A DNA stretch of 64,000 bases from Neomelitea salexigens DSM 19753 (GTDB lineage Bacteria; Pseudomonadota; Gammaproteobacteria; Pseudomonadales; Spongiibacteraceae). Made by a program: the position numbers and the translations under genes. The stretch is from assembly GCF_000422345.1 (NCBI RefSeq), contig NZ_AULP01000006.1:124001-188000 (forward strand), given 5' to 3'. Below, in pieces: positions 28,950 to 51,680 of this stretch; the stretch's first letter is position 1; each line of letters begins with the position of its first letter. Below the pieces are notes generated by a model. The model had not been told where the DNA came from. It did not search any database and was given only the letters and a program-made list of their open reading frames with translations.

Positions 28950-29954
28950 ATGTCTCTGCCTGACTCTTTGGCATCCCGCCTGCGCCTGCCCGTTGTGGCG
29001 GCGCCGATGTTCCTGGCTTCGGGGCCCGAACTTGTTATCGAAACCTGTAAGGCCGGGGCCGTTGGCTCGTTCCCGGCGCTGAACCAACGCAGCAGCGAAG
29101 GCTTCGAGGCTTGGCTTAAAGAAATTCAGACAGCACTTGCCGATTTCGAGCGCAGCTCGGGGCGCGAGGCGGCGCCCTATGCAGTGAACTTAATTGTGCA
29201 CGCCAGTAATCCACGGTTGGAGGCTGATTTGGCACTGTGCGTGCAGTACCAGGTGCCGATTGTCATCACATCACTGGGGGCTGCCGCGCAAGTGATTGAC
29301 GCGGTTCACAGCTATGGTGGTCTGGTGTTTCACGATGTGATTAACGCTCGTCATGCGCGAAAAGCGGCGGCAGCTGGTGTCGACGGCTTGATCGCCGTTG
29401 CGGCAGGAGCCGGTGGCCACGCGGGCAGTACGAGTCCGTTTGCGCTGGTGGCTGAAATTCGTCAGTTCTTCGATAAAACGCTATTGCTTGCGGGCGCTAT
29501 GTCGTCGGGCTCGGATATCGCGGCGGCTCAGATGATGGGCGCCGATCTCGCTTATATGGGCACCCGTTTTATTTGCACACAGGAGTGTCAGGTCGACAGT
29601 GATTACAAGCAAATGGTGATGGACTGCCGTGCAGAAGATATTGTGTATACGCCGAATATTTCCGGTGTGAACGCGAATTTTATGCGCCCCAGTATCGTTG
29701 CCGCTGGCCTGGACCCCGATAATTTGGCTCCAAAAAAAGACATCGACTTCGGGGCGGAGTTGACGGTGGATGGCGACCAGCAGCGTGCAGAAAAAGCCAG
29801 CGGAGCGTGGAAGGCCATTTGGTCCGCCGGGCAAGGGGCGGGCAGCATTGATAACTGCCCCGGTGTTGCCCAGCTTGTAGATCGCTTAGCCGAGGAATAC
29901 CTGCAGGCGCAGCAGCGCGGCAACCAAGCTTTCCAGATATTTGAGACGCAGTGA
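28950..29954 (+). CDS. Nitronate monooxygenase-like flavoprotein
   Basis: FMN-dependent TIM-barrel enzyme of the 2-nitropropane dioxygenase family, 334 residues. Signatures are the N-terminal RLPVVAAPMFLASG, GAVGSFPALN near residue 33, and VAAGAGGHAGSTSPFALV near residue 151 with the catalytic His in GGHAG. The AGAMSSGSDIAAAQMMGADLAYMGTRF part binds the flavin phosphate. Some members act on nitronates, others on enoyl-type or quinone substrates; next to acyl-CoA genes, the substrate need not be a nitro compound. GAGG precedes the ATG. DUF1330 starts 10 bp after its stop. Confidence 0.88.
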   Translation: MSLPDSLASRLRLPVVAAPMFLASGPELVIETCKAGAVGSFPALNQRSSEGFEAWLKEIQTALADFERSSGREAAPYAVNLIVHASNPRLEADLALCVQYQVPIVITSLGAAAQVIDAVHSYGGLVFHDVINARHARKAAAAGVDGLIAVAAGAGGHAGSTSPFALVAEIRQFFDKTLLLAGAMSSGSDIAAAQMMGADLAYMGTRFICTQECQVDSDYKQMVMDCRAEDIVYTPNISGVNANFMRPSIVAAGLDPDNLAPKKDIDFGAELTVDGDQQRAEKASGAWKAIWSAGQGAGSIDNCPGVAQLVDRLAEEYLQAQQRGNQAFQIFETQ

Positions 29955-31695: not shown

Positions 31696-31762
31696 GTCTG
31701 GCCGGTACCGCCATCGTCGGCATTCACGTACACTTTGCGAGCATGTATTTGAAGACGTGGCG

Positions 31763-32770
31763 ATGAATACGATCGACCCCAATTGGACCGTTAACAGCAC
31801 CAGTATCCGCAGTATTGCCCAGGCGATTGCCGCACTGGGTGGCGACAGTGAAGCGCTGCTGAGGTCGGTCGGTATCCTGCCGGAAGCCCTCAGTGACGCC
31901 GAGGCTCGACACCCCGTGTCGGCGATGCATCGCTTGTATGAGCTTGCCGCGCAGCACTGCGGCGAAGATATTGGCCTCTACACCGGCCGTGTGGACTATA
32001 TCAGCCGTCTGAATATGCAGCTCTACACCTGTGGTGTGTGCGAAACCTTCCGCGACTACTTGAACCTGATGCCCAGCGTGCTGCACTTTGCCGGCGACAT
32101 CGGCGAGGTTCGCATTCGCCGCGAGGATGAACGCCTGCGCTTGGACTGGCTACCCCTGTGGGAGGCATCGGGCCGTTGGCGGTATCAAAGTGACTGTCTG
32201 CTTACCACCTCTGCAGCTATTGTGCGCTCGCTGTGTGTGCGGCCAATTCCCGTGCTGCGCGCCCACTTCAGTTACCCGCAGCCCGCTAATACCGAGCTGT
32301 TGGAAAGCATTTTTGGCTGCGACCTGCATTTTTCCCAGCCGCGTAGCTCTCTGTATTTTGATGCGGCGAGCCTCGACTATCGCCTTGTTCAGTTGGACTC
32401 GGAATGGAGTATGTCGATCCGGCAATCTACCCAGCATTTATTCGGCGAAGGTGAGCCCGATCCGGTGTTGCGATCACTGCGCAACACCTTGATAAAAATG
32501 CTGCCGGCGGGTGGGGTGACTATTGATAAAACGGCGGCAGCGCAGAATATATCCCGACGCACTTTGCAGCGGCGACTGGCCGACAGTGGCACCCAGTTCG
32601 GCCAAGTGCTGCAAGAGCTGCGCAGCGAATTGGCATTGCAGTATCTCAGTGATGAGCGCTTGAGTATTACCGATATTGCGCTGCTGCTGGGCTACGCTGA
32701 CCACGGCAGTTTTTCCAGTGCCTTCAAAGCGTGGTTCGGCAAGTCGCCGCGAGAACATCGCCGGAAATAA
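31763..32770 (+). CDS. AraC family transcriptional regulator
   Basis: 335 residues with an N-terminal Arabinose_bd-type sensor domain (OruR/ArgR-like, about 15-200) and a C-terminal double helix-turn-helix from about residue 240. The latter reads KTAAAQNISRRTLQRRLADSG and ITDIALLLGYADHGSFSSAFKAWFGKSP, with the conserved closing PREHRR. A GTG two codons upstream of the chosen ATG is possible. The next gene on the same strand, the acyl-CoA dehydrogenase operon, is preceded by a 13-bp direct repeat fitting this regulator class, so it is the likely controller of the downstream catabolic operon. Confidence 0.9.
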   Translation: MNTIDPNWTVNSTSIRSIAQAIAALGGDSEALLRSVGILPEALSDAEARHPVSAMHRLYELAAQHCGEDIGLYTGRVDYISRLNMQLYTCGVCETFRDYLNLMPSVLHFAGDIGEVRIRREDERLRLDWLPLWEASGRWRYQSDCLLTTSAAIVRSLCVRPIPVLRAHFSYPQPANTELLESIFGCDLHFSQPRSSLYFDAASLDYRLVQLDSEWSMSIRQSTQHLFGEGEPDPVLRSLRNTLIKMLPAGGVTIDKTAAAQNISRRTLQRRLADSGTQFGQVLQELRSELALQYLSDERLSITDIALLLGYADHGSFSSAFKAWFGKSPREHRRK

Positions 32771-32810: not shown

Positions 32811-32875
32811 CCTAAGCGCGCCCCAACAGAGCTTATAGACTGAGTAGGCTAATAATGACTAACTCAGGAGTTCGC

Positions 32876-34051
32876 ATGTCACTGGATTTTGACGGCGCCC
32901 GTCTACACAACCCCTACCTCAATGCCGAGCACGAAGCGTGGCGAGTACAACTGCGTAAATTTGTCGACGCTGAAATCAGCCCCTTTCTCGACGACTGGGA
33001 AGAGGCGGGAAAAATTCCCGATGAACTGTGGGCCAAAGCGGCGGATATCGGTTTGCTGCAGCTCGGCTACCCTGAGGCCTATGGCGGTATTTCCGAGGGT
33101 ATTGACCAATGGCATATCAATATTGCCAACGAAGAGATTACGCGAGCGGGCAGCGCTGGGGGCTTGATCAGTAATTTGCTCGTTCATGGCATTGGCTTGC
33201 CACCCGTGACGAACTGCGGCAGTGATGCGCTGAAAGAAATGGTTGCACCGCGCGTGTTAGCCGGTGAAAAGCGAATTTCACTGGGAATTACCGAGCCTTC
33301 CGGTGGCTCGGATGTTGCCAACATCCAAACGACTGCCAAGCGCGATGGCGACCACTACATTGTGAATGGCAGTAAAACCTTTATCTCCGGAGTCATGGGA
33401 GCGGATTGGGTGAGTACCGCTGTACGCACGGGCGGTGAGGGCGCTGGTGGTGTTTCTATGCTGCTGATTCCCACCGACCTGCCCGGCGTTTCGCGCACCC
33501 CTCTGGACCGCAAGCAGGGTTGGTGGTGTGCCGATACCGGCACCATTTATTTTGACGATGTTCGAGTGCCCGCCGAGTATTTGATCGGGCAAGAAGGGCA
33601 CGGCTTTCTCGTCATCATGAGTAACTTCAACCCGGAGCGATTAAGCCTGATCGTCACCATGGAAGCGGCCGCTCGCGCCTGCCTGGAGGATGCGGTGGAG
33701 TGGGCGCGCAATCGCAAGACCTTCGGCAAACGTCTGGCCGACCACCAGGTGATTCGCCACAAAATTGCCGCGATGAAACAGCGCATCAATGCGACCCAGT
33801 GCTACCTCAATTATTTAACCCAAGCCTATATAGAAGGGCGCTGCGACCCGGGTGACTTGGCAATGGCTAAGGTTCAAGCCAGCGAGACCATGGAGTTTTG
33901 CGCCCGTGAAGCCAGCCAAATTTTAGGCGGGGCCTGCTACTTGCGCGGCAACCGCGTTGAACGCTTTTACCGTGAAGTGAGAGTGAACGCGATTGGCGGC
34001 GGTTCCGAAGAAATCATGCGTGAGCTGGCGTCGCGCCAATACCGTTTGTAA
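32876..34051 (+). CDS. Acyl-CoA dehydrogenase
   Basis: FAD-dependent acyl-CoA dehydrogenase of 391 residues. It has the GITEPSGGSDVANIQTTA flavin-binding segment near residue 137 and GSKTFISGVMGADW. Near the C-terminus IGGGSEEIMRELASRQ replaces the Tyr-Glu-Gly-Thr motif of short/medium-chain enzymes. A glutamate is instead found at Glu254 in NPERLSL, the location used by isovaleryl-CoA dehydrogenase, which favours branched substrates. CAGGAG precedes the ATG at 32876; an ATG 21 bp upstream lacks such a site. First gene of the AraC-controlled operon. Confidence 0.9.
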   Translation: MSLDFDGARLHNPYLNAEHEAWRVQLRKFVDAEISPFLDDWEEAGKIPDELWAKAADIGLLQLGYPEAYGGISEGIDQWHINIANEEITRAGSAGGLISNLLVHGIGLPPVTNCGSDALKEMVAPRVLAGEKRISLGITEPSGGSDVANIQTTAKRDGDHYIVNGSKTFISGVMGADWVSTAVRTGGEGAGGVSMLLIPTDLPGVSRTPLDRKQGWWCADTGTIYFDDVRVPAEYLIGQEGHGFLVIMSNFNPERLSLIVTMEAAARACLEDAVEWARNRKTFGKRLADHQVIRHKIAAMKQRINATQCYLNYLTQAYIEGRCDPGDLAMAKVQASETMEFCAREASQILGGACYLRGNRVERFYREVRVNAIGGGSEEIMRELASRQYRL

Positions 34052-34060
34052 GGAGTTGTT

Positions 34061-34735
34061 ATGAGCAGTGAAAAACCCACGCTGTGGCACTGTTACCCGT
34101 CCCGTTCATTGCGGCCATTGTGGGCGATGGAAGAAATGGGTATCGACTACGAGCTGGTAAACCTTGCTTTTCCGCCGCGCATGTTCCAGCGCGAATACCT
34201 TGAGACTAACCCTCTGGGGACGGTGCCTTTTTTCCGGGACGGCGACGTGGAGATGACCGAGTCCTCCGGTATTTGTCTCTATCTTGTTGAACAATACCAG
34301 CGCTTCGATTTCGGTCTGCGCGTTAGCGACCCCGGCTATGGCGATTACCTGAACTGGTTGTTTCACAGTGATGCGACCCTGACCTTCCCCCAGACCATTG
34401 TTCTGCGTTACTCGCAGCTGGAACCGCCGGAGCGCCGCTTGCCCCAGGCAGTTGAAGACTACAGCAAGTGGTATCTGGCGCGACTAAAGCGCGTGAATAG
34501 CCATTTGCTCGACCGTGAATACCTGTGCGACGACCGCTTCACCATTGCCGATATAGCGGTTGGCTACGCGCTGTATCTGGGTAAGGGACTAGGCCTGGAT
34601 ACGTTCTACGAGCCTCAGGTTAAGGCTTACCTCGAACGTCTGATGGCGCGCCCGGCGTTTCAACGCGCCGAACCGATGGGCGCTGGACCAAACAGTTTCG
34701 TCCCCACGCCTTATCCCTTTGAAGGCTGTTTTTAA
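34061..34735 (+). CDS. Glutathione S-transferase family protein
   Basis: 224 residues. The N-terminal thioredoxin-like domain begins LWHCYPSRSLRPLWAMEEMG, with a probable catalytic Ser in PSRS. The cis-Pro lies in NPLGTVPFFRDGD and the glutathione-binding ESSGICLYLVE follows. The helical C-terminal half has FTIADIAVGYALYL, the GST N-capping motif. A strong AAGGAG precedes the ATG and it lies 9 bp after the acyl-CoA dehydrogenase. A GST inside a terpenoid/acyl-CoA operon is unusual and may open an epoxide, isomerise a double bond or remove a reactive by-product (inference). Confidence 0.9.
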   Translation: MSSEKPTLWHCYPSRSLRPLWAMEEMGIDYELVNLAFPPRMFQREYLETNPLGTVPFFRDGDVEMTESSGICLYLVEQYQRFDFGLRVSDPGYGDYLNWLFHSDATLTFPQTIVLRYSQLEPPERRLPQAVEDYSKWYLARLKRVNSHLLDREYLCDDRFTIADIAVGYALYLGKGLGLDTFYEPQVKAYLERLMARPAFQRAEPMGAGPNSFVPTPYPFEGCF

Positions 34736-34761
34736 ATAATTTTGCGTAGTTGGAGCGTTTT

Positions 34762-35919
34762 ATGATTTTGACAGAAGAGCATCAAAAGTTGCGCGATACC
34801 GTGGCGCAGTTTGTCGACAAAGAAATAAACCCCCACGCCGATGCCTGGGAAGCGGAGGGGATTTTTCCCGCCCATGAGCTGTTTAAAAAAATGGGCGACT
34901 TGGGCCTGCTGGGCATTTCTAAGCCGGTGGAATATGGCGGTCTCGGTCTGGATTACAGCTACCAAACGGTATTTTCAGAGGAGCTGGGCAGGATTACCAC
35001 CGGCGGTGTATCGATGGGCATTGGCGTACAAACTGATATGGCAACGCCGGCGCTGGCAAAGTTTGGCAGCGATGAATTGCGTCGCGAATTTCTCACGCCT
35101 GCGATAAGCGGGGACGCGGTGTTCTCCATTGCGGTGAGTGAGCCCCATGCCGGTTCCGATGTTGCGGCGATTAAAACCACGGCCCGCAAAGACGGCGACG
35201 ATTACATTATCAATGGCAGCAAAATGTGGATCACTAATTCCACTCAGGCGGATTATCTCTGCCTGCTGGCCAATACCAGCGAAGGTAAAGCGCACAGCAA
35301 TAAATCGCTGATTGTCGTGCCGACTAACACGCCGGGGGTGTCCTTTTCGGAGCGCTTAAACAAGCTGGGTATGCGTTCATCGGATACCGCGCAGGTGTTC
35401 TTTGACGATGTTCGCGTACCCCAGCGCAATCGCATTGGTGAAGAGGGGCAGGGTTTTATCTACCAGATGCTGCAATTCCAGGAAGAACGCCTGTATGCCG
35501 CTGCGGGACAACTCAAGGCCATGGAAGCCTGCATCAACCAAACCATTGACTATGCCCGCGAGCGCGAAATATTTGGTGAGCCACTTCTTAATAATCAAGT
35601 GGTTCACTTTCGGATGGCAGAGTTGCAGTCCGAGGTCGAAGCGCTGCGTGCGCTGACCTATAGCGCGGTGGAGGAATATATCCACGGAAGCGACGTGACC
35701 ATGAAGGCGTCCATGGCCAAGCTCAAAGCGGGTCGCCTCGCCAGAGAAGTTACCGATGCCTGCTTACAGTATTGGGGCGGCATGGGCTTTATGTGGGACA
35801 ACCCCATCTCTCGCGCCTACCGCGATACGCGGCTCACCTCCATTGGTGGCGGCGCAGACGAGGTGATGCTGGGCATTATCTGTAAATTGATGGGCACCCA
35901 TCCGGGCCGCAGAAAGTAG
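34762..35919 (+). CDS. atuD: AtuD-like (citronellyl-CoA) dehydrogenase
   Basis: 385-residue acyl-CoA dehydrogenase. Its N-terminus (MILTEEHQKLRDTVAQFVDKE) and the GISKPVEYGGLGLDYSY segment resemble Pseudomonas AtuD, which oxidises citronellyl-CoA to cis-geranyl-CoA. Flavin contacts are SIAVSEPHAGSDVAAIKTTA and KMWITN. The C-terminal SIGGGADEVMLGIICK has no catalytic Glu in the usual place, while Glu242 in QEERLYAAAG is in the isovaleryl-CoA dehydrogenase position. GGAG lies 7 nt before the ATG at 34762; an upstream in-frame TTG is less likely. Next is the carboxylase beta subunit, 20 bp downstream. Confidence 0.8.
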   Translation: MILTEEHQKLRDTVAQFVDKEINPHADAWEAEGIFPAHELFKKMGDLGLLGISKPVEYGGLGLDYSYQTVFSEELGRITTGGVSMGIGVQTDMATPALAKFGSDELRREFLTPAISGDAVFSIAVSEPHAGSDVAAIKTTARKDGDDYIINGSKMWITNSTQADYLCLLANTSEGKAHSNKSLIVVPTNTPGVSFSERLNKLGMRSSDTAQVFFDDVRVPQRNRIGEEGQGFIYQMLQFQEERLYAAAGQLKAMEACINQTIDYAREREIFGEPLLNNQVVHFRMAELQSEVEALRALTYSAVEEYIHGSDVTMKASMAKLKAGRLAREVTDACLQYWGGMGFMWDNPISRAYRDTRLTSIGGGADEVMLGIICKLMGTHPGRRK

Positions 35920-35939
35920 TGCGCTAAAAGGACGAGTTT

Positions 35940-37553
35940 ATGGCGATATTAGAGTCTTACATCGATCGACACAGCGATGCTTTTCAGCGCAATGCCAAGG
36001 TTATGGGCGCGGCCGTTGATGAGTTTCGAGACATCGAACAGCGAGTGATTGCCGCGGCCGAGAAAAAAGTACCGCGTTATCGCGAACGCGGTCTTATGCC
36101 GCCGCGCGAGCGTTTAAGTGCCCTGCTTGATGTGGGTACCCCCTTTCTCGAACTGTCGACCCTCTGCGGCTATATGCAGGAAGAGGATCGCGATGGCAGT
36201 GCCGCCGGCGGAAGCTGTATTACCGGTATTGGTTATGTGGCGGGCGTTCGCTGCATGATTATGGTCGATGATTATCTCACCAAGGGCGGCAGCATTACGC
36301 CATTGGGCAGCGCCAAGCGTCAGCGGATGATGCGTATCGCGATCGAGAACAAGCTTCCGGTGCTCACCTTGGCGCAAAGTGGCGGCGGTAATTTAAAGCT
36401 GCTCGGTGACTTTTTCGGGCCGTCTGGGGCCGGCTTTGCCGTGCAGGCAAAACTGTCGGCGATGGGTATCCCGCAAATTACCGTAGTGCACGGCAGCGCA
36501 ACCGCTGGCGGTGCTTATCAACCCGGCTTGTCCGACTACGTCATTATGATACGTCGTCAGTCCACGGTGTATCTCGCCGGTCCGGCACTGCTTAAAGCGG
36601 CAACTGGCGAAGAGGCCAGCGACGAGGAGATTGGCGGCGCTGAGATGCACGCGGAAGTCGCCGGAACGGCCGACTATCTGGCAGAAAACGACGCCGATGG
36701 TATTCGTATTGCCCGCGAAGTTGCGGGCAAGCTCGACTGGGACAAACGCTTGCAGGCCAGTGCGGAAGCGGCCTATGCCGAACCGCATTTTGATGCTGAG
36801 GAGCTGCTAGGTATTGTGCCCGAAGACCCCAAAACGCCCTACGACGTGCGGGAAATTATCGCGCGCATTGCCGACGATTCAGACTTCCTGGAATTCAAGA
36901 GTGCCTTCGATATTGGCACGGTCTGCGGTCATATGGCGATTCAAGGTATTGCCTGTGCAGTGATTGGCAATAACGGTCCGATTACTGCCAAGGGGGCGGC
37001 GAAGGCCGGGCAATTTATTCAGCTTTGCGAGCAGTCGCAAACGCCGATTGTTTTTCTTCATAACACCACCGGCTTTATTGTCGGCACCGAAGCGGAACAG
37101 GGCGGCATCATCAAGCATGGCTCGAAACTGATTCAGGCGGTTACCAATGCGTCTGTGCCCAAAATCAGTATTGTTGTCGGCGGTTCCTACGGCGCGGGTA
37201 ACTACGCGATGTGCGGCCGCGGTATGGAGCCGCGCTTTATGTTCGCATGGCCGCGCAGCGTGGTTTCGGTGATGGGGCCTGCCCAGGCGGGCAGCGTGAT
37301 GCGTCAGGTTGCCGAAGCGAAAATGCGCCGCGCAGGGCAGGTGAGTGAAGAGATGCTCGATGCTCTTGAGAAAGACACCGTGGATACCATGGCGGCGAAG
37401 TCTCACGCCTTGGCCAATACCGCACGCATGTGGGATGACGGAATTATCGACCCTCGCGATACACGCAGCGTGTTGGGCTTTGTGCTTGATATTTGCCGCG
37501 ATGCCGATGCTCGTCAGATCACGACCAACACCTTCGGCATTGGCCGTTTGTAG
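35940..37553 (+). CDS. atuC: Acyl-CoA carboxylase carboxyltransferase subunit (AtuC-like)
   Basis: 537-residue biotin-dependent carboxyltransferase of the methylcrotonyl/geranyl-CoA carboxylase type. Both crotonase-fold halves are present, with GGSCITGIGYVAG and TAGGAYQPGLSDYV in the N-half. GAAKAGQFIQLCEQ, NTTGFIVGTEAE and GGSYGAGNYAMCGRG in the C-half form the oxyanion holes and dimer contacts. The stretch before SAMGIPQITVVHG is Gly/Ala-rich (GPSGAGFAVQAKL), without the aromatic pair seen in methylcrotonyl-CoA carboxylases, compatible with longer terpenoid acyl chains. Partner is the biotin-carrying subunit at 38387. Substrate assignment is inferred from context. Confidence 0.82.
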   Translation: MAILESYIDRHSDAFQRNAKVMGAAVDEFRDIEQRVIAAAEKKVPRYRERGLMPPRERLSALLDVGTPFLELSTLCGYMQEEDRDGSAAGGSCITGIGYVAGVRCMIMVDDYLTKGGSITPLGSAKRQRMMRIAIENKLPVLTLAQSGGGNLKLLGDFFGPSGAGFAVQAKLSAMGIPQITVVHGSATAGGAYQPGLSDYVIMIRRQSTVYLAGPALLKAATGEEASDEEIGGAEMHAEVAGTADYLAENDADGIRIAREVAGKLDWDKRLQASAEAAYAEPHFDAEELLGIVPEDPKTPYDVREIIARIADDSDFLEFKSAFDIGTVCGHMAIQGIACAVIGNNGPITAKGAAKAGQFIQLCEQSQTPIVFLHNTTGFIVGTEAEQGGIIKHGSKLIQAVTNASVPKISIVVGGSYGAGNYAMCGRGMEPRFMFAWPRSVVSVMGPAQAGSVMRQVAEAKMRRAGQVSEEMLDALEKDTVDTMAAKSHALANTARMWDDGIIDPRDTRSVLGFVLDICRDADARQITTNTFGIGRL

Positions 37554-37562
37554 GGGGTGAGT

Positions 37563-38390
37563 ATGTTACCGGAATGCAAAGAATTGCTGCTGTCGCTGGA
37601 CGGCGGCGTGTTGTCGATCACACTCAACCGGCCACATAAACGCAACGCCATGAACAAGAGGCTTGTCGACGAAATGCGTGCGGTATTCGCCGCCATCGCC
37701 GATCACCGCAGCGTGCGCGCCGTGGTGTTGCGCGGCGCAGAGGGGAATTTTTGTGCGGGCGGCGATATCGCCGGCATGCACGACGGCGCGGTAGATGAGG
37801 AGGGCAAGCCCTTGTCCCCGGATAAGGCGGCCTGGCAGTTTAACCGTAGCTTCGGTCACCTTATCACCGAGGTAAATAAGGCCCCCCAGGTCGTTATCAC
37901 GGTCTTGGAAGGCGCGGTGCTAGGTGGCGGTTTTGGTCTGGCCTGTGTCTCGGATATTGCGATTGCCAAAGCCGATGCCAAATTTGCCATGCCGGAAACT
38001 GGCCTGGGCATTGTGCCCGCGCAGATCACGCCTTTTGTGGTGATGCGGGTTGGATTGACGCAGGCCCGGCGCTTGGCTTTAACCGGGCAGCGCATCGACG
38101 GCGCTGAAGCGCAGCGCCTCGGTCTAGTGCATTTCTGCGCGGAAAGTAACGACGACATTGACGCGCAGTTAAACGACCAACTCTCTGCGTTGCGGCGTTG
38201 TGCTCCGGCAGCAACCGCGCTTACCAAGTCGCTACTTCTTGATGTCGGCACTACCGCACTTGAACCGCTTTTAGACCACGCATCAGATCTTTTTGCCCAA
38301 TGCCTGAATGGGCCAGAGGGCAAAGAGGGGACGCAGGCGTTTATCGAAAAGCGCAAACCCAGCTGGTATTCGGAACGGGGAACAGCATGA
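37563..38390 (+). CDS. atuE: Enoyl-CoA hydratase family protein (AtuE-like)
   Basis: Crotonase-fold protein of 275 residues. The oxyanion-hole segment NFCAGGDIAGM near residue 62 and GAVLGGGFGLACVSDIAIA near residue 118 are visible. Of the two catalytic glutamates of enoyl-CoA hydratase only the second is kept (Glu145 in AMPETGLGIVPAQ); the first is Gly125. The same GGGFGL...PAQI pattern is what I associate with isohexenylglutaconyl-CoA hydratase AtuE. GGGGGTGA precedes the ATG. Its end overlaps the biotin carboxylase start by ATGA. Confidence 0.78.
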   Translation: MLPECKELLLSLDGGVLSITLNRPHKRNAMNKRLVDEMRAVFAAIADHRSVRAVVLRGAEGNFCAGGDIAGMHDGAVDEEGKPLSPDKAAWQFNRSFGHLITEVNKAPQVVITVLEGAVLGGGFGLACVSDIAIAKADAKFAMPETGLGIVPAQITPFVVMRVGLTQARRLALTGQRIDGAEAQRLGLVHFCAESNDDIDAQLNDQLSALRRCAPAATALTKSLLLDVGTTALEPLLDHASDLFAQCLNGPEGKEGTQAFIEKRKPSWYSERGTA

Positions 38391-40348
38391 CCGCATTGCA
38401 CAAAATACTGATCGCAAACCGCGGCGAAATTGCCGTGAGGGTAATACGCAGCGCCAAACAAATGGGCTATCGCACTGTCGCCGTATTTAGCGATGCCGAC
38501 GACAATGCCCCCCATGTTCAGCTTGCTGATGAGGCCGTGAATATCGGCCCGGCGGCTGTGTCGGAGTCGTATTTGCGCGTGGACGCCATTATTGACGCCG
38601 CGACAAAAACCGGAGCAGATGCGATTCACCCCGGCTACGGCTTTCTCTCAGAAAATGCCGACTTTGCCCGTGCGTGTCAGGCGGCGGGTGTCACTTTTAT
38701 CGGTCCGTCCAGCGACGCAATTGAATTGATGGGCAGCAAGCGCTTGTCTAAGTTGGCAATGATCGCCGCTGGCGTGCCCTGTGTGCCTGGGTATGAAGGC
38801 GACGATCAGAGCGACGAGCGCTTGGTGGCTGAAGCAGAATGCATTGGCTTTCCAATTATGGTCAAGGCCTCGGCGGGCGGCGGCGGACGCGGTATGCGGC
38901 TGGTTGATCAGGCGGCAGATTTACCTGAGCAACTGCGCAGCGCTCGATCGGAGGCGCTGTCAGCCTTCGGCAGTGATGAGCTGATTCTGGAGAAGGCGGT
39001 GCAGCAGCCGCGCCATGTCGAGATACAGGTTTTCGCCGACAGCCAAGGCAATGCCATTCATTTAGCCGAGCGCGACTGCTCGGTTCAGCGCCGCCATCAA
39101 AAGGTGGTGGAGGAGGCGCCGTCGCCCTTTGTCGATGACGCATTGCGCCAGCGCATGGGCGACGCCGCTGTTGCCGCGGCCAAGGCCTGCAATTACTGCG
39201 GTGCGGGTACGGTCGAATTTTTGGTTGATGCACAGGGCAGTTTCTATTTTTTAGAAATGAACACGCGCCTTCAGGTTGAGCACCCGGTGACGGAAATGGT
39301 TACCGGTGTTGACTTGGTGGAATGGCAGCTGCGTATTGCCAGTGGCGAGCCACTGCCGATGGCGCAATCCCAGCTCCGCCTCAATGGCCACGCGGTTGAA
39401 GTGCGCCTGTATGCCGAGGAGCCGCGCCAGCAGTTTATGCCTCAAACCGGCCGTATTGCCCGCTGGCAAGTGCCGCAGGAGCCGGGGCTGCGACTGGATA
39501 GCGGGATTGGCGAAGGGCAGCTTATCGGCGCCCATTACGACCCCATGCTGGCGAAACTGATTTGCTGGGCGCCGAGCCGTGAAGAGGCGCTGCGGCGTTT
39601 GGCGTCGATGTTGCAAGATACGGTATTGCTGGGCATCAATAACAATCTGCAGTTTTTGCAGGCGGTGCTGCGCCATCCGAGTTTTATTGCCGGAGAGGCC
39701 ACCACGGCTTTTATCGCTGAGTATGGAGAGCAGTGCACGCCTCCGCCAGAGCCCGGCACTGCCAGCTTGGCAAGGGCAGCCGCGGTGCTATACGAAAGCA
39801 ATGCCGCGGCGGCTAAAACAATGTCTGCCTGGCGGCGCAGCGCCCCGGAAAGTTGCGTTTTCACGCTTGCTTGGGAGGGACAGGAATACCGCGTCGACCT
39901 TGTTGCGACGGGCAAACAGCGCGAATTCGGTGTTGCCGGTCAGCGCCATACCTTGCAGGTGGCAGGTAGCGATGCTCAATCCTGTGTTATTGAAGAGGAC
40001 GGCGTGAGGCGGCGCATCCACTTTGCGCGTGATGGCAAGCAGCTGTTCCTGGATGACGGCAGCGGCCACTTCATTTTCGATGATACCAGCCACGCTGCCG
40101 CCAAAGCGGATGCGACCGCCGGCAGCGGCTTGCTGAAAGCGTCTATGGACGGCGCCATCGTGGAGGTGCTCGTTGCCGAGGGTGAGAAGGTTAGCTGTGG
40201 GCAAACCTTGGTTGTGTTGGAGGCGATGAAAATGGAGCACCCGCTAAAGGCAGATATGGACGGCGCGGTAGCGGCTATCCACTGCCAAGCAGGCGATCAA
40301 GTGAAGTCGCGGCAGTTGCTTGTCGAGCTGAATGAGGAGGCGCTATGA
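38387..40348 (+). CDS. atuF: Acyl-CoA carboxylase biotin-carrying alpha subunit (AtuF-like)
   Basis: 653 residues combining biotin carboxylase (residues 1-450), a linking BT-type region, and a C-terminal biotinyl domain with VLEAMKMEHPL (modified Lys615). ATP-grasp motifs [13 protein letters not shown] and EMNTRLQVEHPVTEMVTG are intact. This fused layout is that of methylcrotonyl-, geranyl- and propionyl-CoA carboxylase alpha subunits, unlike free AccB/AccC at 1983-3817. It overlaps both neighbours by ATGA, so translation is coupled with AtuE-like and AtuA. Carboxylates the substrate together with the 35940 product. Confidence 0.88.
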   Translation: MTALHKILIANRGEIAVRVIRSAKQMGYRTVAVFSDADDNAPHVQLADEAVNIGPAAVSESYLRVDAIIDAATKTGADAIHPGYGFLSENADFARACQAAGVTFIGPSSDAIELMGSKRLSKLAMIAAGVPCVPGYEGDDQSDERLVAEAECIGFPIMVKASAGGGGRGMRLVDQAADLPEQLRSARSEALSAFGSDELILEKAVQQPRHVEIQVFADSQGNAIHLAERDCSVQRRHQKVVEEAPSPFVDDALRQRMGDAAVAAAKACNYCGAGTVEFLVDAQGSFYFLEMNTRLQVEHPVTEMVTGVDLVEWQLRIASGEPLPMAQSQLRLNGHAVEVRLYAEEPRQQFMPQTGRIARWQVPQEPGLRLDSGIGEGQLIGAHYDPMLAKLICWAPSREEALRRLASMLQDTVLLGINNNLQFLQAVLRHPSFIAGEATTAFIAEYGEQCTPPPEPGTASLARAAAVLYESNAAAAKTMSAWRRSAPESCVFTLAWEGQEYRVDLVATGKQREFGVAGQRHTLQVAGSDAQSCVIEEDGVRRRIHFARDGKQLFLDDGSGHFIFDDTSHAAAKADATAGSGLLKASMDGAIVEVLVAEGEKVSCGQTLVVLEAMKMEHPLKADMDGAVAAIHCQAGDQVKSRQLLVELNEEAL

Positions 40349-42120
40349 GCCGTTCGTCAGTACATATTGGCTGTGCCTCGGCGTTTTACGGCGACAGTCA
40401 GCTTGCGGCGCGGCAGTTGGTGGACAAAGGCGAGCTGGACTACCTGGTGTTCGACTACCTGGCAGAAGTGACCATGGGGATTCTCGCCAAGGCGCGAGCC
40501 CGAGATGAACGGCTGGGTTTTGCCGTGGATTTTGTCACCGTTGCCATGCGCGATGTGATGGCAGACTGCGCTGCCAAAGGGATTAAGATTATTGCCAATG
40601 CCGGTGGCGTAAATGTGCCCGGCTGTATTGCCGCACTGCAGTCCTTGGCCGAGGAGCAGGGCCTGCAGCTCAATATTGCCGGTGTGTATGGCGACGACGT
40701 GCTGTCACGCAGGGAAGAATTTGCCCGTGAGGGCCTGAGCGACATGGAGAATGGCGCGCCGCTGCCCGACAAGCTTGCCAGTATGAATGCCTACCTTGGG
40801 GCTCAGCCCATCGCCGAGGCGCTGGCCGCCGGTGCCGATATCGTGGTGACCGGGCGCGTGGTCGACAGTGCGGTGGTGATCGCGCCACTGATGCATGAAT
40901 TCGGCTGGAGCTGGCAGGACTACGATCGTTTGGCGCAAGCGGCCTTGGCCGGGCACGTACTGGAATGCGGCGCCCAGTGTACCGGCGGTAACTTTACCGA
41001 CTGGCACCAAGTGCCGGACTTTTCCACGATGAGCTACCCCATTGCCGAGGTTGCGGCAGAGGGCGATTTTATTGTGACCGTTCCACCGGCGACCGGCGGT
41101 TTGGTCAACCGCGCCACTGTCGCTGAGCAGATCCTCTATGAAATTGGTGATCCGGCAAACTATCTGCTGCCGGATGTTGCCTGTGATTTTAGTGATGTGC
41201 GCTTGGAGGAGGTCGGAGAAAACCGGCTTAAGGTGAGCAATGCCAAGGGCCGCGCGCCGGGCGATAGCTACAAGGTTTGCGCAACCTGGGTAGACGGCTA
41301 TCGCTTAATGGGCAGCGCCTTTATCGGCGGGCTGCGCGCTGCCGAGAAAGCGCGCTGTAGCCTTAATGCTTGGTTGCAACGCTGCAGTAGCGTCTTCAAA
41401 GAACGCGCTTGGGAAGACTTTCGCGATGTCAGCATCGAGGTCATCGGTGCCGAGGACACCTATGGCCGTCACGCGCGCAATACCGGTAGCAGGGAGGTGA
41501 TGGCCAAATACGGTTTGCACCACAACAGCCGCGAGGCGCTTACCTTCGCCGCCAACGAGTTCGCCTATCTCGCGACCTCGGCGGCACCGGGCATGAGTGG
41601 CTTTGGCGCTGGCCGAGCCAAGCCCGGCCCATTGATTCGCATTCACTCGTCGCTACTCGCCAAAGACCGTGTTCCCGTCACCGTACAAATGGGCGATCAG
41701 CGCTTAAGCGAGCGCAGCTACCCAACGCCAGGTTCCAGCCCCGCGGTCGGTAGCCGTTACTCATCACTGGCTGTCAGCGAGGATGTCGACGGCCGCGTAC
41801 CGCTGGAGCAGTTGGCCTATGCGCGCAGCGGCGACAAGGGTAATAACGCGAATATCGGTGTGATTGCGCGCCACGAGCGCTATTTGCCCTACATCGCCCA
41901 GGCCTTGTCGGAGAGCGCGGTGGCGGAGTACTTCGAGCATCTGCTCGGCGGCGGTGTACACCGCTTTGATGTGCCGGGTTTCCACGCCTTTAATTTTTTG
42001 TTGCGCGACGCGCTGGGCGGGGGCGGTAGTGCCTCGCTGCGGGTTGATTCGCAGGGCAAAGCGCTGGCGCAAATGCTGCTTTCAATGGAGGTCGATATTC
42101 CGCAACGTCTGTTGGATTGA
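40345..42120 (+). CDS. atuA: AtuA, acyclic terpene utilisation protein (DUF1446)
   Basis: 591 residues. The N-terminal DUF1446/AtuA domain (1 to about 450) has VHIGCASAFYGDS, LDYLVFDYLAEVTMGILAK, IIANAGGVNVPGC and GADIVVTGRVVDSAVV. A C-terminal AtuA-like domain (about 485-590) begins LEQLAYARSGDKGNNANIGV. AtuA is required for citronellol growth in Pseudomonas aeruginosa but its reaction is unknown. Last gene of the seven-gene operon, translationally coupled to AtuF. Its presence is the main reason for reading this operon as Atu rather than Liu (leucine) catabolism. Confidence 0.85.
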   Translation: MSRSSVHIGCASAFYGDSQLAARQLVDKGELDYLVFDYLAEVTMGILAKARARDERLGFAVDFVTVAMRDVMADCAAKGIKIIANAGGVNVPGCIAALQSLAEEQGLQLNIAGVYGDDVLSRREEFAREGLSDMENGAPLPDKLASMNAYLGAQPIAEALAAGADIVVTGRVVDSAVVIAPLMHEFGWSWQDYDRLAQAALAGHVLECGAQCTGGNFTDWHQVPDFSTMSYPIAEVAAEGDFIVTVPPATGGLVNRATVAEQILYEIGDPANYLLPDVACDFSDVRLEEVGENRLKVSNAKGRAPGDSYKVCATWVDGYRLMGSAFIGGLRAAEKARCSLNAWLQRCSSVFKERAWEDFRDVSIEVIGAEDTYGRHARNTGSREVMAKYGLHHNSREALTFAANEFAYLATSAAPGMSGFGAGRAKPGPLIRIHSSLLAKDRVPVTVQMGDQRLSERSYPTPGSSPAVGSRYSSLAVSEDVDGRVPLEQLAYARSGDKGNNANIGVIARHERYLPYIAQALSESAVAEYFEHLLGGGVHRFDVPGFHAFNFLLRDALGGGGSASLRVDSQGKALAQMLLSMEVDIPQRLLD

Positions 42121-42190: not shown

Positions 42191-43021
42191 GTGGTAGAGA
42201 GTGCATCGAGCTTTGGGCGGTTTTTAAAGTTTTGGCGCGGCGTGCATCGCCTCAGTCAGGAGCAGCTGGCCTTTGAGCTGGGCAGTTCGCCGCGCCATAT
42301 CAGCCGCCTTGAAAATGGCAGCAGTCGCCCCAGCGAAACGATGGTGTTGGAGATCGCCAAAGCGCTGAAATTGGGGCGGCGCGACCAGAGCCATTTACTG
42401 ATTGCAGCCGGTTTTGCGCCGCGCGACGATCGTGTCGATTTTAACTCAGCAGAACTCAAGTGGTTGCGGAGCGCCATGACCATGACGCTGCAGGCGCTGG
42501 ACCCCTATCCCGCTTGCCTGGTGGATAATTCCACTAATATTCTCATGGTTAACCGCAGCTGGCTGGGGTTCTACTCCCGCCTGATGCCCGCCGATGAACT
42601 GCACAATATCAGCAATTTTTACGACTTTATGTTCAGCTCCCAGTCCGCCGAAAATGCCGTGAGCAATTGGGAGGACACACTGTCGGCAATTCTTATGTCG
42701 ATCCAACAATCGGCGCTATTCAGTAATGACCCAACGGTGAAGGCAACCCTGGATCGGCTGCGAAGTTATCCCTCCGTACCTAGCGACTGGCAGCAGCGCG
42801 CCGCGTCGGTGGAACCGATGGCGAGCTTTCGCGTACAGCTGGCGATAGACGGTGTCATGCAGCGATTTTTCAGTGTGAGCACCACTGTGGGAGCGCTGGG
42901 GCCAACGGCCTTTGTTTCCGAGCCTCAGTTAACCGTTACCGCGCTATACCCGGAAGATCGTCAGCTAAATGTGGATGCCTTCGCTGACACCGACCTCAGT
43001 CACCCGCTGCTGTTCTACTAG
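42191..43021 (+). CDS. XRE-type regulator with MmyB-like ligand domain
   Basis: 276 residues. An N-terminal helix-turn-helix (about 9-65; LSQEQLAFELGSSPRHISRLENGSS) is followed by a MmyB-like domain (about 90-270) with PYPACLVDNSTNILMVNRSW, the PAS-like fold reported to bind fatty-acid-type ligands in MmyB proteins. The GTG start has no strong ribosome site. It lies between the AtuA gene and the acyl-CoA dehydrogenase module at 43114, which it probably regulates in response to an acyl compound (inference). Confidence 0.86.
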   Translation: MVESASSFGRFLKFWRGVHRLSQEQLAFELGSSPRHISRLENGSSRPSETMVLEIAKALKLGRRDQSHLLIAAGFAPRDDRVDFNSAELKWLRSAMTMTLQALDPYPACLVDNSTNILMVNRSWLGFYSRLMPADELHNISNFYDFMFSSQSAENAVSNWEDTLSAILMSIQQSALFSNDPTVKATLDRLRSYPSVPSDWQQRAASVEPMASFRVQLAIDGVMQRFFSVSTTVGALGPTAFVSEPQLTVTALYPEDRQLNVDAFADTDLSHPLLFY

Positions 43022-43035
43022 TTCTGGCGCTGCCT

Positions 43036-43048
43036 GACATCAGATGTC
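43036..43048. promoter_or_regulatory. Palindrome upstream of the second beta-oxidation module
   Basis: GACATCAGATGTC is a perfect 13-bp palindrome, 65 bp before the 601-residue acyl-CoA dehydrogenase gene and 14 bp after the XRE-type regulator gene. Size and symmetry suit a dimeric XRE regulator, but there is no second copy seen to support it. Confidence 0.35.
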
Positions 43049-43113
43049 GTGGCTGGCTCTGGGGGTGCTGGGCATACTGCTGTCACAATTCTTTTTCGAT
43101 ATGAGGTACTACC

Positions 43114-44919
43114 ATGCCTGCTCCGCTACTCAACGAACGCGATCTCGATTTCATGCTGTACGAATTTCTGGACAGCGAGAGCATGTGTGCGCGCGAGCGT
43201 TATCGAGACCACAATCGCGAAAGCTTTGATGCCGCGATTGCCACTGCCAAGCAGGTTGCGGAAAAGTACTTCCTGCCGATTCGCGGCAAGGTCGACCGCA
43301 ATGAGCCACGTTTTGAAAATGGCCGTGTGGAAATGCTCCCCGAGATCAAACAGGCGGTCGATGCCGCTACCGAGGCAGGGTTTGTCTCGTCAACGGCTGA
43401 CTACGAAGTGGGCGGGATGCAATTGCCCCTGCCCGTGGCCACGGTCGCCAATGCGTACCTTACCGCCGCAGGCAGTACGACCCTGGGGTACTTGAGCTTA
43501 ACCACCGCTAACGCCAGTTTGATAGAAGCGCACGGCACGCCAGAGCAGATTGCCAAGTGGGCCGTGCCCCAGCGCAGTGGCCGCTTTGCCGGCACCATGG
43601 CAATGACGGAGCCCGGTGCGGGCTCGGGCCTGGCAGACCTCATTACCAGTGCTGAGCGCGCAGAGGACGGCAGTTACCGCATTACCGGAAATAAGATCTA
43701 TATCTCTGGCGGCGATCACGAGCTTAATGAAAATATTGTGCACCTGGTTTTGGCTAGGGTGAAGGGGGCGCCAAAGGGGACCAAAGGCATCTCGCTGTTC
43801 ATTGTGCCCAAGTATCTGGTTAACGACGATGGCAGCCTGGGTGAGCAGAACGATGTGGCTTTGGCGGGACTGTTCCACAAAATGGGGGGACGCGGACAAA
43901 CCTCTACATCGTTGAACTTCGGTGAGCGCGGAGGGGCGGTCGGCTATTTGGTTGGCGAGGAAAACCGCGGCCTGAGTTACATGTTCCACATGATGAACGA
44001 GGCGCGCATTATGGTGGGCACGGGTGCCGCAACCATTGCTCTCACCGGCTTTCAATACTCACTAAACTATGCCCGCGAGCGCCCGCAGGGTCGCTTACCC
44101 TCATGCAAAGACCCGCTGTCGCCACCGGTTAATATTATTGAACACGCCGACGTACGCCGCATGTTATTGGCCCAGAAGGCCTATGCCGAGGGCGCGTTTG
44201 CCCTCTGTTTGTTTGGCGCACAGTTGGCTGACGACCAGCACACCGCACCAACCGAAGAGCAGCGCAGTCAGGCTAAATTATTGCTCGATTTCTTGATTCC
44301 CATGATCAAAACCTGGCCCTCTGAGTACGGCCCTCAGGCCAATAGCTTGGCCATTCAGGTATTGGGAGGTGCGGGTTATATCAATGAACACCCCGTTGAA
44401 ATGTTTTACCGCGATAATCGTCTGAACCCCATTCACGAGGGGACTACCGGCATTCAGTCCCTCGACCTGCTGGCACGGAAGGTACCGATGCAGGGCATGG
44501 CAGGCTACCGCTACTGTCTGGCGTTAATGAGCGAAACGGTGGCCAAGGCAAGTAATGTTAGCGGTTTGGTGGAACAGGCGGGGCAGCTTGAAGCGGCAAT
44601 CCAACGGTTGGCGAAAACAACGGAGACGCTATTGGCAGCCATGGCCGATACCGATATCGATAAAGTATTGGCTAACTCGGTTATATATCTGGAGCTGTTT
44701 GGCCATGTGGTTGTGGCCTGGTTATGGCTGAAGCAAGGGCTTGTGGCTAGCGCAGCACTGGCCGAGAGTGAGCACAGTGATGAGCAAAATTTCTACCGTG
44801 GCAAACTGCAGGCCATGCGTTATTTCTTCTCAGTGGAGCTGCCACATACTAAGCGCTGGTCGGCGCTGTTAGAGCAAGGCGAAGACAGCGCTTTTGTGAT
44901 GCGTGATGAATGGTTTTAA
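43114..44919 (+). CDS. Long acyl-CoA dehydrogenase with C-terminal domain
   Basis: 601 residues, the size of the FadE/DmdC-like family that has an extra N-terminal helix region and a C-terminal helical domain beyond the catalytic core. Flavin-binding MAMTEPGAGSGLADLIT is near residue 164 and the catalytic glutamate is in NPIHEGTTGIQSLDLL near residue 440. Such enzymes often oxidise long or unusual acyl-CoA such as methylmercaptopropionyl-CoA. GAGG lies upstream of the ATG. First structural gene of a dehydrogenase-hydratase-SDR module. Confidence 0.9.
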   Translation: MPAPLLNERDLDFMLYEFLDSESMCARERYRDHNRESFDAAIATAKQVAEKYFLPIRGKVDRNEPRFENGRVEMLPEIKQAVDAATEAGFVSSTADYEVGGMQLPLPVATVANAYLTAAGSTTLGYLSLTTANASLIEAHGTPEQIAKWAVPQRSGRFAGTMAMTEPGAGSGLADLITSAERAEDGSYRITGNKIYISGGDHELNENIVHLVLARVKGAPKGTKGISLFIVPKYLVNDDGSLGEQNDVALAGLFHKMGGRGQTSTSLNFGERGGAVGYLVGEENRGLSYMFHMMNEARIMVGTGAATIALTGFQYSLNYARERPQGRLPSCKDPLSPPVNIIEHADVRRMLLAQKAYAEGAFALCLFGAQLADDQHTAPTEEQRSQAKLLLDFLIPMIKTWPSEYGPQANSLAIQVLGGAGYINEHPVEMFYRDNRLNPIHEGTTGIQSLDLLARKVPMQGMAGYRYCLALMSETVAKASNVSGLVEQAGQLEAAIQRLAKTTETLLAAMADTDIDKVLANSVIYLELFGHVVVAWLWLKQGLVASAALAESEHSDEQNFYRGKLQAMRYFFSVELPHTKRWSALLEQGEDSAFVMRDEWF

Positions 44920-44944
44920 TAAGCCCAAACAATAAGGATGAAAA

Positions 44945-45406
44945 ATGGCGACAACAGTAGATAGAACGAAGGTGATGGAATACGTCGGTAGGGAGACACC
45001 GCCGACCCAGTGGCACACAGTCGATCAAGCGGCCATCAACGAATTTGCCGACTGTACGCTGGACCATCAGTTTATTCATGTTGACCCTGAGCGCGCGAAA
45101 CAAACCCCCTTCGGTGGTACGGTTGCCCATGGTTTTTTAAGCTTGTCGATGCTGTCGCATTTCGCAGAAGAGTTTATGGTGATGATCGAGGGCACCCATA
45201 TGGGCTTGAATTACGGTTTTGACAAGGTTCGTTTTATCGCGCCTGTAGCCGTCGATAGCCGCATTCGCGCCCGCGCTAAGTTTATCGACATCACCGAAAC
45301 CAAGCCGGGGCAATTTCGCTTCACCACTCAGGTGACAATAGAGATCGAGGGTCAGGATAAACCCGCTCTGATCGCAGAGTGGTTGACCATGCAACTAGTG
45401 GCGTAA
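44945..45406 (+). CDS. MaoC-like enoyl-CoA hydratase
   Basis: 153-residue single hot-dog-fold MaoC/(R)-hydratase. The catalytic Asp and His are in FADCTLDHQFIHVDPERA (the D-x4-H motif), followed by PFGGTVAHGFLSLSML. Hydrates trans-2-enoyl-CoA to 3-hydroxyacyl-CoA. It is 25 bp after the dehydrogenase and 18 bp before the SDR, providing the second step of a local beta-oxidation module. An AAGGA site precedes the ATG. Confidence 0.92.
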   Translation: MATTVDRTKVMEYVGRETPPTQWHTVDQAAINEFADCTLDHQFIHVDPERAKQTPFGGTVAHGFLSLSMLSHFAEEFMVMIEGTHMGLNYGFDKVRFIAPVAVDSRIRARAKFIDITETKPGQFRFTTQVTIEIEGQDKPALIAEWLTMQLVA

Positions 45407-45424
45407 ACATAAAAGGAAATAAAA

Positions 45425-46339
45425 ATGGATGTGAGATTTGATGGTCAGGTAGCTATTGTAACGGGCGCGGGAAACGGCTTGGGGCGTAGCCACGCTCTGG
45501 CATTGGCGGCGCGTGGCGCCAAGGTTGTGGTGAATGACCTGGGCGGCGCCCGCGATGGCAGCGGCGCGTCCTCGGAGGCGGCGCGGGAAGTGGTTGCGAC
45601 CATAGAAGCCAATGGCGGCGAGGCGATCGCCCACGGCGCCAATGTTGCGGTAATGGCAGAAGTTGAGGACATGGTTCGCCAGGCAATGGACAAGTGGGGG
45701 CGCGTCGATATTCTGGTAAACAACGCCGGTATTTTGCGCGATAAAACCTTTGCCAAAATGTCGCTGGACGACTTTCGTTTAGTGATGGATGTGCACCTGA
45801 TGGGCTCGGTGAATTGCACCAAGGCGGTGTGGGACATTATGCGCGAGCAGGAATATGGCCGCATCGTGATGACTACGTCGTCGTCGGGCATGTACGGTAA
45901 CTTTGGCCAGAGTAATTACGGCGCCGCCAAGATGGCCGTGCTCGGCTTTATGAATACCCTGGGCCTTGAGGGTGCCAAGAAGAATGTGCGGGTCAATGCG
46001 CTGTCACCGACGGCGGCAACGCGCATGACCGAAGACTTGCTACCGAAGGAAGTGCTGGATCTACTCACGCCGGAATCGGTAACGGCTGGTGCGCTGGTGC
46101 TGTGCCATGAATCTGCACCCAATCGCCATATTCTATGCGCTGGAGCCGGCGGTTATGCGAGTTCACGAATCTTTGAAACCGAAGGCGTGTTCTTGGGTGT
46201 TGAACAACAGACGCCTGAGGCAATCCTGGAAAACTGGGATGCCATTACCAGTGAAGCTGCGCAGCGGCCGCTAGAGGCGGGAAGTAAGCAAACTGAGAAA
46301 TTCCTCGCCAAAGCCATGGCGGCGATGTCGGCGGATTAA
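45425..46339 (+). CDS. SDR, 3-hydroxyacyl-CoA dehydrogenase-like
   Basis: 304-residue SDR resembling the dehydrogenase domain of peroxisomal multifunctional enzyme type 2. Its segment VVNDLGGARDGSGASSEAAR is typical of that group. TGAGNGLGRSHALAL binds the cofactor, with Asp in VVNDL favouring NAD. The catalytic Ser is in MTTSSSGMYGNFGQ, and Tyr and Lys in NYGAAKMAVLGF. The C-terminal 80 residues are an extension beyond the usual 250. Third step after the dehydrogenase and MaoC genes; AAAGGA precedes the ATG. Confidence 0.9.
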   Translation: MDVRFDGQVAIVTGAGNGLGRSHALALAARGAKVVVNDLGGARDGSGASSEAAREVVATIEANGGEAIAHGANVAVMAEVEDMVRQAMDKWGRVDILVNNAGILRDKTFAKMSLDDFRLVMDVHLMGSVNCTKAVWDIMREQEYGRIVMTTSSSGMYGNFGQSNYGAAKMAVLGFMNTLGLEGAKKNVRVNALSPTAATRMTEDLLPKEVLDLLTPESVTAGALVLCHESAPNRHILCAGAGGYASSRIFETEGVFLGVEQQTPEAILENWDAITSEAAQRPLEAGSKQTEKFLAKAMAAMSAD

Positions 46340-49884: not shown

Positions 49885-50002
49885 AGTGCCTCTCCAGATG
49901 TTTTAAAAATTCTCCACAGCGTTGGGCCTTAAAACGGCCCGTCGCTGTTTTGCTTCCGTCAGTGAAAGCAGGGGATTTTTCTGGTTGTTTTATTCGGCCG
50001 GT

Positions 50003-51421: not shown

Positions 51422-51680
51422 AGCCGCCAATACTTCCTATTGTTGTCGTAAAACATTTGTACAGGCGAGTTAATACAACTTTATTTAAATCGCTCTGGTG
51501 TGGGCTCCAAGATTGAATCCCAAAATAGTCTATGCCCTAATGGGCGATCTCGCTATTGCCGTGACTGCTCAAACCTCGTAAAAAAGGGTCAATGCTTACG
51601 CCTTACGCTAGCGCAGAATGTCGGCGCTGAACAGGGCGGCTAGTAGGATAATTATTCAATAATGACCACACAGACTATTT

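Follow-up and report, generated by a model that had tools for sequence, protein, structure and literature searches.

The closest described counterpart of the operon discussed here is the atuABCDEFGH cluster of Pseudomonas. The operon is found in Neomelitea salexigens DSM 19753, here counted as a Spongiibacter, within a stretch of 64,000 nucleotides (contig NZ_AULP01000006.1, positions 124,001 to 188,000; hereafter the window, to which all coordinates refer). It consists of seven plus-strand genes at 32855-42120 that, according to open reading frames (ORFs) and Pfam, encode two acyl-CoA dehydrogenases (ACAD1 and ACAD2) with a glutathione S-transferase (GST) in between, followed by AtuC, AtuE, AtuF and AtuA. 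The latter four thus occur together with an AtuD-like ACAD, as in Pseudomonas, and the genome likewise contains separate genes for methylcrotonyl-CoA carboxylase (MCC) and 3-hydroxy-3-methylglutaryl-CoA (HMG-CoA) lyase. In contrast to Pseudomonas, the order atuABCDEFGH is not present, the regulator is of the AraC type and not AtuR, ACAD1 and the GST are added, AtuB, AtuG and AtuH are absent from the seven genes, Gly162 of geranyl-CoA carboxylase (GCC) is replaced by Ser, and a FadE-MaoC-SDR block (SDR, short-chain dehydrogenase/reductase) follows downstream. The operon belongs to a family of its own that occurs in Gamma- and Alphaproteobacteria, most of them marine judging from the genus names, and it is not a locally scrambled atuABCDEFGH cluster. 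With a probability of roughly 60%, its products catalyse that branch of the degradation of isoprenoid acyl-CoAs in which the beta-methyl group is removed; gamma-carboxylation and hydration would here be followed by the release of acetate.

Other described systems resemble parts of the operon. The GCC of P. aeruginosa (5ikl; PMC4673880) is the best solved match of AtuC and also lacks the MCC insertion, but the window has Ser at the diagnostic Gly position (Thr in one relative) and its carboxylase belongs to a separate clade. The linalool/atu genes of Thauera linaloolentis (PMC4847356) include the same AtuC, AtuF, AtuE and AtuA set, but their context is a linalool isomerase and geoAB, and the main text of that paper never mentions glutathione. 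Subunit A of citramalate lyase (9erq/9evf), deposited as an AtuA family protein, has the fold of the N-terminal part of AtuA, but is 17% identical and, with 456 residues, too short for the ferredoxin-like domain that is fused in AtuA. ThnQ and ThnS of anaerobic naphthalene degradation are AtuA-like and, in PMC12016498, which cites unpublished work, are described to cleave tertiary-hydroxy acyl-CoA to 3-oxoacyl-CoA; they differ from the system in the window in that a ring is cleaved, two genes are involved, and the organisms are anaerobes.

Gene organization

The operon and its regulator are composed of the following genes:

31757..32770, plus strand: AraC-type regulator (Arabinose_bd and HTH_18; Pfam), directly upstream of the operon
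32855..34051, plus strand: ACAD1, acyl-CoA dehydrogenase, extra in comparison to Pseudomonas atu (Pfam; best solved match 3r7k)
34061..34735, plus strand: GST of an own subfamily (Pfam; predicted model)
34762..35919, plus strand: ACAD2, AtuD-like acyl-CoA dehydrogenase (Pfam; the ORF opens at TTG 34750)
35940..37553, plus strand: AtuC-like carboxyltransferase (beta) subunit (best solved match 5ikl; tree; residue count)
37557..38390, plus strand: AtuE-like isohexenylglutaconyl-CoA hydratase (solved matches; GTG start, alternative ATG at 37563)
38387..40348, plus strand: AtuF-like biotin carboxylase/biotin carboxyl carrier protein (alpha) subunit (Pfam; start picked by the ATGA overlap)
40345..42120, plus strand: AtuA (PF07287 and PF23544), proposed acetate-releasing lyase (Pfam; predicted model compared with citramalate lyase 9evf)

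AtuE/AtuF and AtuF/AtuA overlap by ATGA (38387-38390 and 40345-40348), and the other gaps comprise 3 to 26 bases, which bears out the seven co-directional genes with overlaps or short gaps that an earlier note on this sequence had described. That note let the operon begin at 32876, which is the second in-frame ATG of ACAD1; the gene was correctly recognized, and its start is at 32855. For ACAD2, the ATG at 34762 looks likelier than the TTG at 34750, and the mechanical ORF start of AtuF at 38300 looks over-extended. AtuF contains the biotin-attachment motif AMKM. AtuE has its best solved matches in 4zu2 (305.9 bits) and 4k3w (296 bits), the next one reaching 137 bits, and the solved protein nearest to it is an AtuE. 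With the ACAD that adjoins AtuC in relatives with type-I carboxylases, ACAD2 shares 62-72% identity, and it is via these ACADs, not via AtuD of P. aeruginosa, that it is likened to AtuD. Scans for promoters and terminators gave 2 sites (7.4 expected) and 17 sites (17.9 expected), respectively.

A separate operon family

A scan of genome contigs with two peptide patterns of the AtuC clade, which was not exhaustive, gave 33 loci. Without one of them (L096, 33% identity) and with two additional loci (L046 and L047), a set of 34 loci was compared, in which several stretches stop at contig ends. AtuF was present in 30 of these loci, AtuE in 27, ACAD2 in 26, AtuA in 23, a distant AtuA2 in 4, the GST in 19, ACAD1 in 18 and AraC in 11; near the cluster, FadE was found in 3 loci (at >=50%), and MaoC and SDR in 4 each. 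The exact order ACAD1-GST-ACAD2-AtuC-AtuE-AtuF-AtuA recurs in 10 of the 34 loci, in one of which AtuF gives two matches. One is the locus of Spongiibacter marinus DSM 17750 (L064), the nearest named relative found, with AtuC 99% and AtuF and AtuA 96% identical to the window, whose host may accordingly be a sister species, and nine are from metagenome-assembled genomes (MAGs) that by title belong to Colwellia (2), Arenicella, Kordiimonadales/Kordiimonadaceae (2), Sphingomonadales, Alphaproteobacteria, Gammaproteobacteria and Proteobacteria. As further members of the carboxylase clade share this order, the term "rearranged" in the earlier note holds for the comparison with Pseudomonas, but not for a local event. 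Some relatives from the same taxonomic order have the arrangement AtuA-SDR-AtuC-ACAD-AtuE-AtuF. On plasmids, AtuA matches were found in 172 records, all with less than 60% identity.

A carboxylase clade with Ser at the diagnostic position

Among the solved structures, the beta subunit of P. aeruginosa GCC (5ikl) is the best match of AtuC (731.5 bits), followed by a protein named propionyl-CoA carboxylase (PCC) beta subunit (458 bits) and by the beta subunit of P. aeruginosa MCC (455 bits). According to PMC4673880, Gly162 marks GCC, and Phe191 together with a three-residue insertion marks MCC. In an alignment of 68 carboxyltransferases, the AtuC clade makes up 35 rows, and in the Gly162 column, which was placed via a one-residue numbering offset inferred from chain length, 34 of these rows, including the window, have Ser and one has Thr. 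The MCC insertion is absent in all 35, again including the window, and present in 10 of the 68 rows, MCC among them. The 23 remaining rows have Gly in 21 cases, Ala in one (L063) and Ser in one that stands outside the clade (L110, 43% identity), and the type-I rows at 57-63% identity, including 5ikl, have Gly without exception (11 of 11). By the strict rule for a GCC beta subunit, AtuC thus lacks the insertion as required, but it also lacks the Gly. FastTree, applied after removal of carboxyltransferases that duplicated another one over their whole length or their last 400 residues and without truncated ones, separated the AtuC clade from all other rows with a support of 1.000. The published Gly/Phe annotation rule names no Ser-type group such as this clade.

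The window genome has a separate MCC-type carboxyltransferase with the MCC insertion (C9:98-100 kb) and an HMG-CoA-lyase type gene about 3 kb away. Bit scores, tree and insertion agree with the earlier proposal of a terpene-type carboxylation operon, as the carboxylase sides with the geranyl-CoA and not with the methylcrotonyl-CoA kind. The same note had named a grouping with MCC or PCC as an argument against its proposal, and such a grouping was not found for MCC; the few proteins named PCC were compared by score, outside the tree.

AtuA and the lyase step

AtuA was said in the earlier note to have no known reaction, and this does not hold. PMC4847356 tentatively describes AtuA as 3-hydroxy-3-isohexenylglutaryl-CoA (HIHG-CoA):acetate lyase, and relatives are lyases. 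The predicted AtuA model (pLDDT 93.2) has a single PDB match below E 0.001, which is citramalate lyase 9evf, a structure that contains ADP (Foldseek E 3e-22; Z 31.5, root-mean-square deviation 4.0, 415 of 456 residues aligned, 17% identity), and a profile search also led to 9erq with E 1.6e-8. The protein thus combines a PF07287 domain with the citramalate lyase fold. PMC4097962 prefers LiuE for the lyase step, and it gives acetate and 3-oxoacyl-CoA as products of this step. LiuE, as described in PMC12016498, releases acetyl-CoA from HMG-CoA. Because the recorded products are acetate and 3-oxoacyl-CoA, a chemistry like that of citramalate lyase would fit the step, and from the chemistry AtuA appears better suited to it than an enzyme of the HMG-CoA-lyase type. 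The difference in products, acetate or acetyl-CoA, would cleanly tell AtuA and LiuE apart as candidates for the HIHG-CoA lyase.

Across 390 genomes sampled from the taxonomic order, AtuA family members are found in 117 of the 127 that have a GCC-like carboxyltransferase, versus 37 of the 263 that lack one. Of the latter 37, 24 are listed, and 16 of these show short frames only (446-500 amino acids). In Spongiibacter genomes without GCC (e.g. G001, G009 and G011), the AtuA-family frames are short as well (about 458-465 amino acids), which is the size of citramalate lyase and not of the long fused form. At one locus (L095:8329-9938), a gene for a beta-keto acid cleavage enzyme precedes GST-AtuC-AtuF, with no AtuE or AtuA in the stretch covered; this enzyme may be a stand-in for the lyase.

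Two modules in one operon

The genes around the operon that matter for its modular composition, and for one of the alternatives below, are these:

28950..29954, plus strand: nitronate-monooxygenase-like flavoprotein, separated from the operon start by a few genes (Pfam)
42191..43021, plus strand: MmyB-like helix-turn-helix regulator (Pfam), in the same place in S. marinus, UBA5047 and the carboxylase-free G007
43114..44919, plus strand: FadE-like acyl-CoA dehydrogenase with a PF12806 C-terminus (Pfam), present in G007 as well
44945..45406, plus strand: MaoC-type enoyl-CoA hydratase (Pfam)
45425..46339, plus strand: SDR (Pfam), possibly a 3-hydroxyacyl-CoA dehydrogenase

The last four form a block directly downstream of AtuA (42191-46339). 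Among 17 Spongiibacter genomes sampled, 15 contain the GST and 3 the AtuC carboxylase clade. The surroundings of the GST were read in five genomes without this clade (G002, G007, G009, G010 and G017). Three of them (G002, G009 and G017) have AraC-ACAD1-GST-ACAD2 with no AtuC-E-F-A beside it, and G007 has AraC-ACAD1-GST-ACAD2-MmyB-FadE-MaoC-SDR, which is the gene order of the window with AtuC-E-F-A left out; its ACAD2 and MmyB matches are 43 bases apart. In G010, the arrangement is reduced to GST-ACAD2, and a type-I-like carboxylase is encoded at another site of the genome. In a sister genus (G018), the order is ACAD1-GST-ACAD2-MmyB. As four congeners keep AraC-ACAD1-GST-ACAD2 without AtuC-E-F-A, the GST is independent of the AtuC-type carboxylase. 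The GST that had been described as embedded is thus genuine and conserved, but its insertion into an Atu operon is not supported; rather, two modules had been read as one unit, AraC-ACAD1-GST-ACAD2 and the AtuC-E-F-A cassette. With the modules separated, a role of the GST in acyl-CoA oxidation can be tested across congeners with and without the cassette.

The glutathione S-transferase

The protein has the N- and C-terminal domains and the fold of a GST (Pfam; model pLDDT 92.9; structure matches), with at most 26% identity in any of the 50 solved matches listed. Residues that are invariant in 34 sequences include H10-C11, R15-S16, R18, F37-P38-P39-R40, A105, T106, T108, F109, P110 and T66-E67-S68, the last of which includes the Glu-Ser motif of the glutathione (GSH) site. 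In 10 complete loci including the window, the mean pairwise identity of the GST is 65.3%, as compared to 65.4% for AtuA and 60.5% and 57.4% for AtuE and AtuF. With a conservation equal to that of AtuA, the GST looks, by sequence, like a dedicated pathway enzyme. In the 390-genome sample, it occurs in 11 of 12 genomes with the AtuC clade versus 59 of 378 others, and in 10 of these 12 its distance to AtuC does not exceed 1.4 kb; as the genomes are related to each other, Fisher values on these counts are a guide only.

A maleylacetoacetate isomerase (zeta GST) was rejected as general reading, as the NCBIfam maiA model gave 33.9 bits with a cut-off of 171.05. The idea came from two MAG loci with aromatic-degradation genes directly upstream of ACAD1-GST-AtuC, namely for HPPD and an aromatic amino acid hydroxylase (L078:5155-7942) and for MhpA-like, CoA ligase, curcumin-reductase-like, VOC and FAH-like proteins (L093:524-7870); such genes may occur at other loci too, since only chosen neighbours were annotated. 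The same GST subfamily is also encoded near genes for ABC1-type atypical kinases (L107, L108 and L111), and elsewhere near other dehydrogenases.

Proposed pathway and alternatives

From gene content, homology, order, clade and conservation, we infer the following route for the host. ACAD2 and ACAD1 would produce a 3-methyl-2-enoyl-CoA, the gamma-methyl group of which would be carboxylated by AtuC/AtuF. AtuE would hydrate the product, and AtuA would release acetate from the resulting mono-CoA ester of a tertiary 3-hydroxy diacid, leaving 3-oxoacyl-CoA. FadE, MaoC and SDR, together with a thiolase encoded elsewhere, could then continue beta-oxidation, until the end of the chain, by then 3-methylcrotonyl-CoA, would be passed on to the separate liu pathway. 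As substrate, we consider an isoprenoid with a 3-methyl branch probable, and one different from citronellate; the latter idea, which the earlier note had put forward, is made plausible by the Ser in place of the diagnostic Gly and by the added GST, second ACAD and AraC. Some relatives are flanked by genes for a CoA ligase, an Fe-alcohol dehydrogenase or a GMC oxidoreductase, which would fit an isoprenoid alcohol or acid. Altogether, the observation of the earlier note is confirmed and its interpretation partly supported.

The GST may act near the dehydrogenation steps, and we would guess, with low confidence, that it isomerizes a double bond of enoyl-CoA in a GSH-dependent manner. A pathway in which such an isomerase works between the two ACADs, with an optional AtuC-E-F-A module that adds 3-methyl-branched isoprenoids via a Ser-type GCC relative, would be tentative and in sum rather unlikely; in the literature searched, mostly at listing level, we found no description of it.

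Several findings weigh against the proposed isoprenoid branch or parts of it. The Ser at the position of Gly162 means that activity with geranyl-CoA is not assured, and the regulator is of the AraC type, unlike AtuR of Pseudomonas, which is TetR-type. The GST is missing from 15 of the 34 loci and from 87 of the 127 genomes with a GCC-like carboxyltransferase, a GCC-like carboxyltransferase is absent altogether from 30 of the 70 genomes that have the GST, and the low maiA score leaves the isomerase idea without direct support. FadE, MaoC and SDR are near the cluster in few loci (3 or 4 of 34). Four loci have the distant AtuA2 only, and 7 have neither AtuA form in the stretch covered; in 5 of these 7, the contig breaks off close to AtuC. 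RecA chains also appeared in the AtuA profile search with E 1.7e-5, which makes weak E-values less trustworthy, and the lyase step has been given to LiuE as described above.

What alternatives exist for this isoprenoid branch? The operon could in principle encode the ordinary citronellol/geraniol (Atu) pathway with shuffled genes, with the GST in an auxiliary role as a scavenger of unsaturated intermediates that are reactive. AtuC and AtuE are nearest to solved Atu proteins, and ACAD2 is close to the ACADs beside AtuC in type-I relatives, but the same order with the GST recurs in records of two classes, all 35 clade rows have Ser or Thr where the 11 type-I rows have Gly, and the GST equals AtuA in conservation, with many residues invariant in 34 sequences. 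We therefore regard this alternative as unlikely, albeit as the strongest competitor.

It appears quite doubtful that one and the same step, e.g. enoyl-CoA isomerization or reduction, is carried out by the GST in some genomes and by the nitronate-monooxygenase-like flavoprotein in others. In 7 of the 34 loci, a gene for such a flavoprotein, of which the one at 28950-29954 is a 51% homologue, lies between ACAD2 and AtuC with the GST absent, and in 6 of these 7 genomes, a search at E 1e-25 found no GST. However, all seven are from the related genera Alteromonas and Paraglaciecola, a homologue of the flavoprotein is encoded somewhere in 9 of 15 genomes of the GST type, which weakens strict alternatives, and the window contains both; the tie between its flavoprotein and the operon is uncertain.

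A branched sterol side chain, whose C24 branch would be stripped by carboxylation and lyase action in a steroid-degrading Spongiibacter, is kept as an improbable alternative: the window genome has 7 KshA-like Rieske oxygenase matches, 7 of 16 chosen AtuC-clade genomes have at least one KshA match, and in a Colwellia relative, genes for an SCP2-type thiolase and for a family-III CoA transferase are located upstream, but no KshA match was found in the other 9 of the 16, that Colwellia and several incomplete MAGs included, and the matches of the window genome (G000) are on contigs C1, C2, C3 and C9 with the operon on C6, so that the KshA test speaks against sterols as common substrate.

Independent of the operon, the seven KshA-like matches may indicate that the host is a steroid degrader. 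Further downstream in the window, on the minus strand at 47896-51430, a fused acyl reductase/SDR gene lies beside a wax ester synthase/diacylglycerol acyltransferase gene, and a gene of the latter kind also adjoins the carboxylase cluster at one of the other loci (L045).

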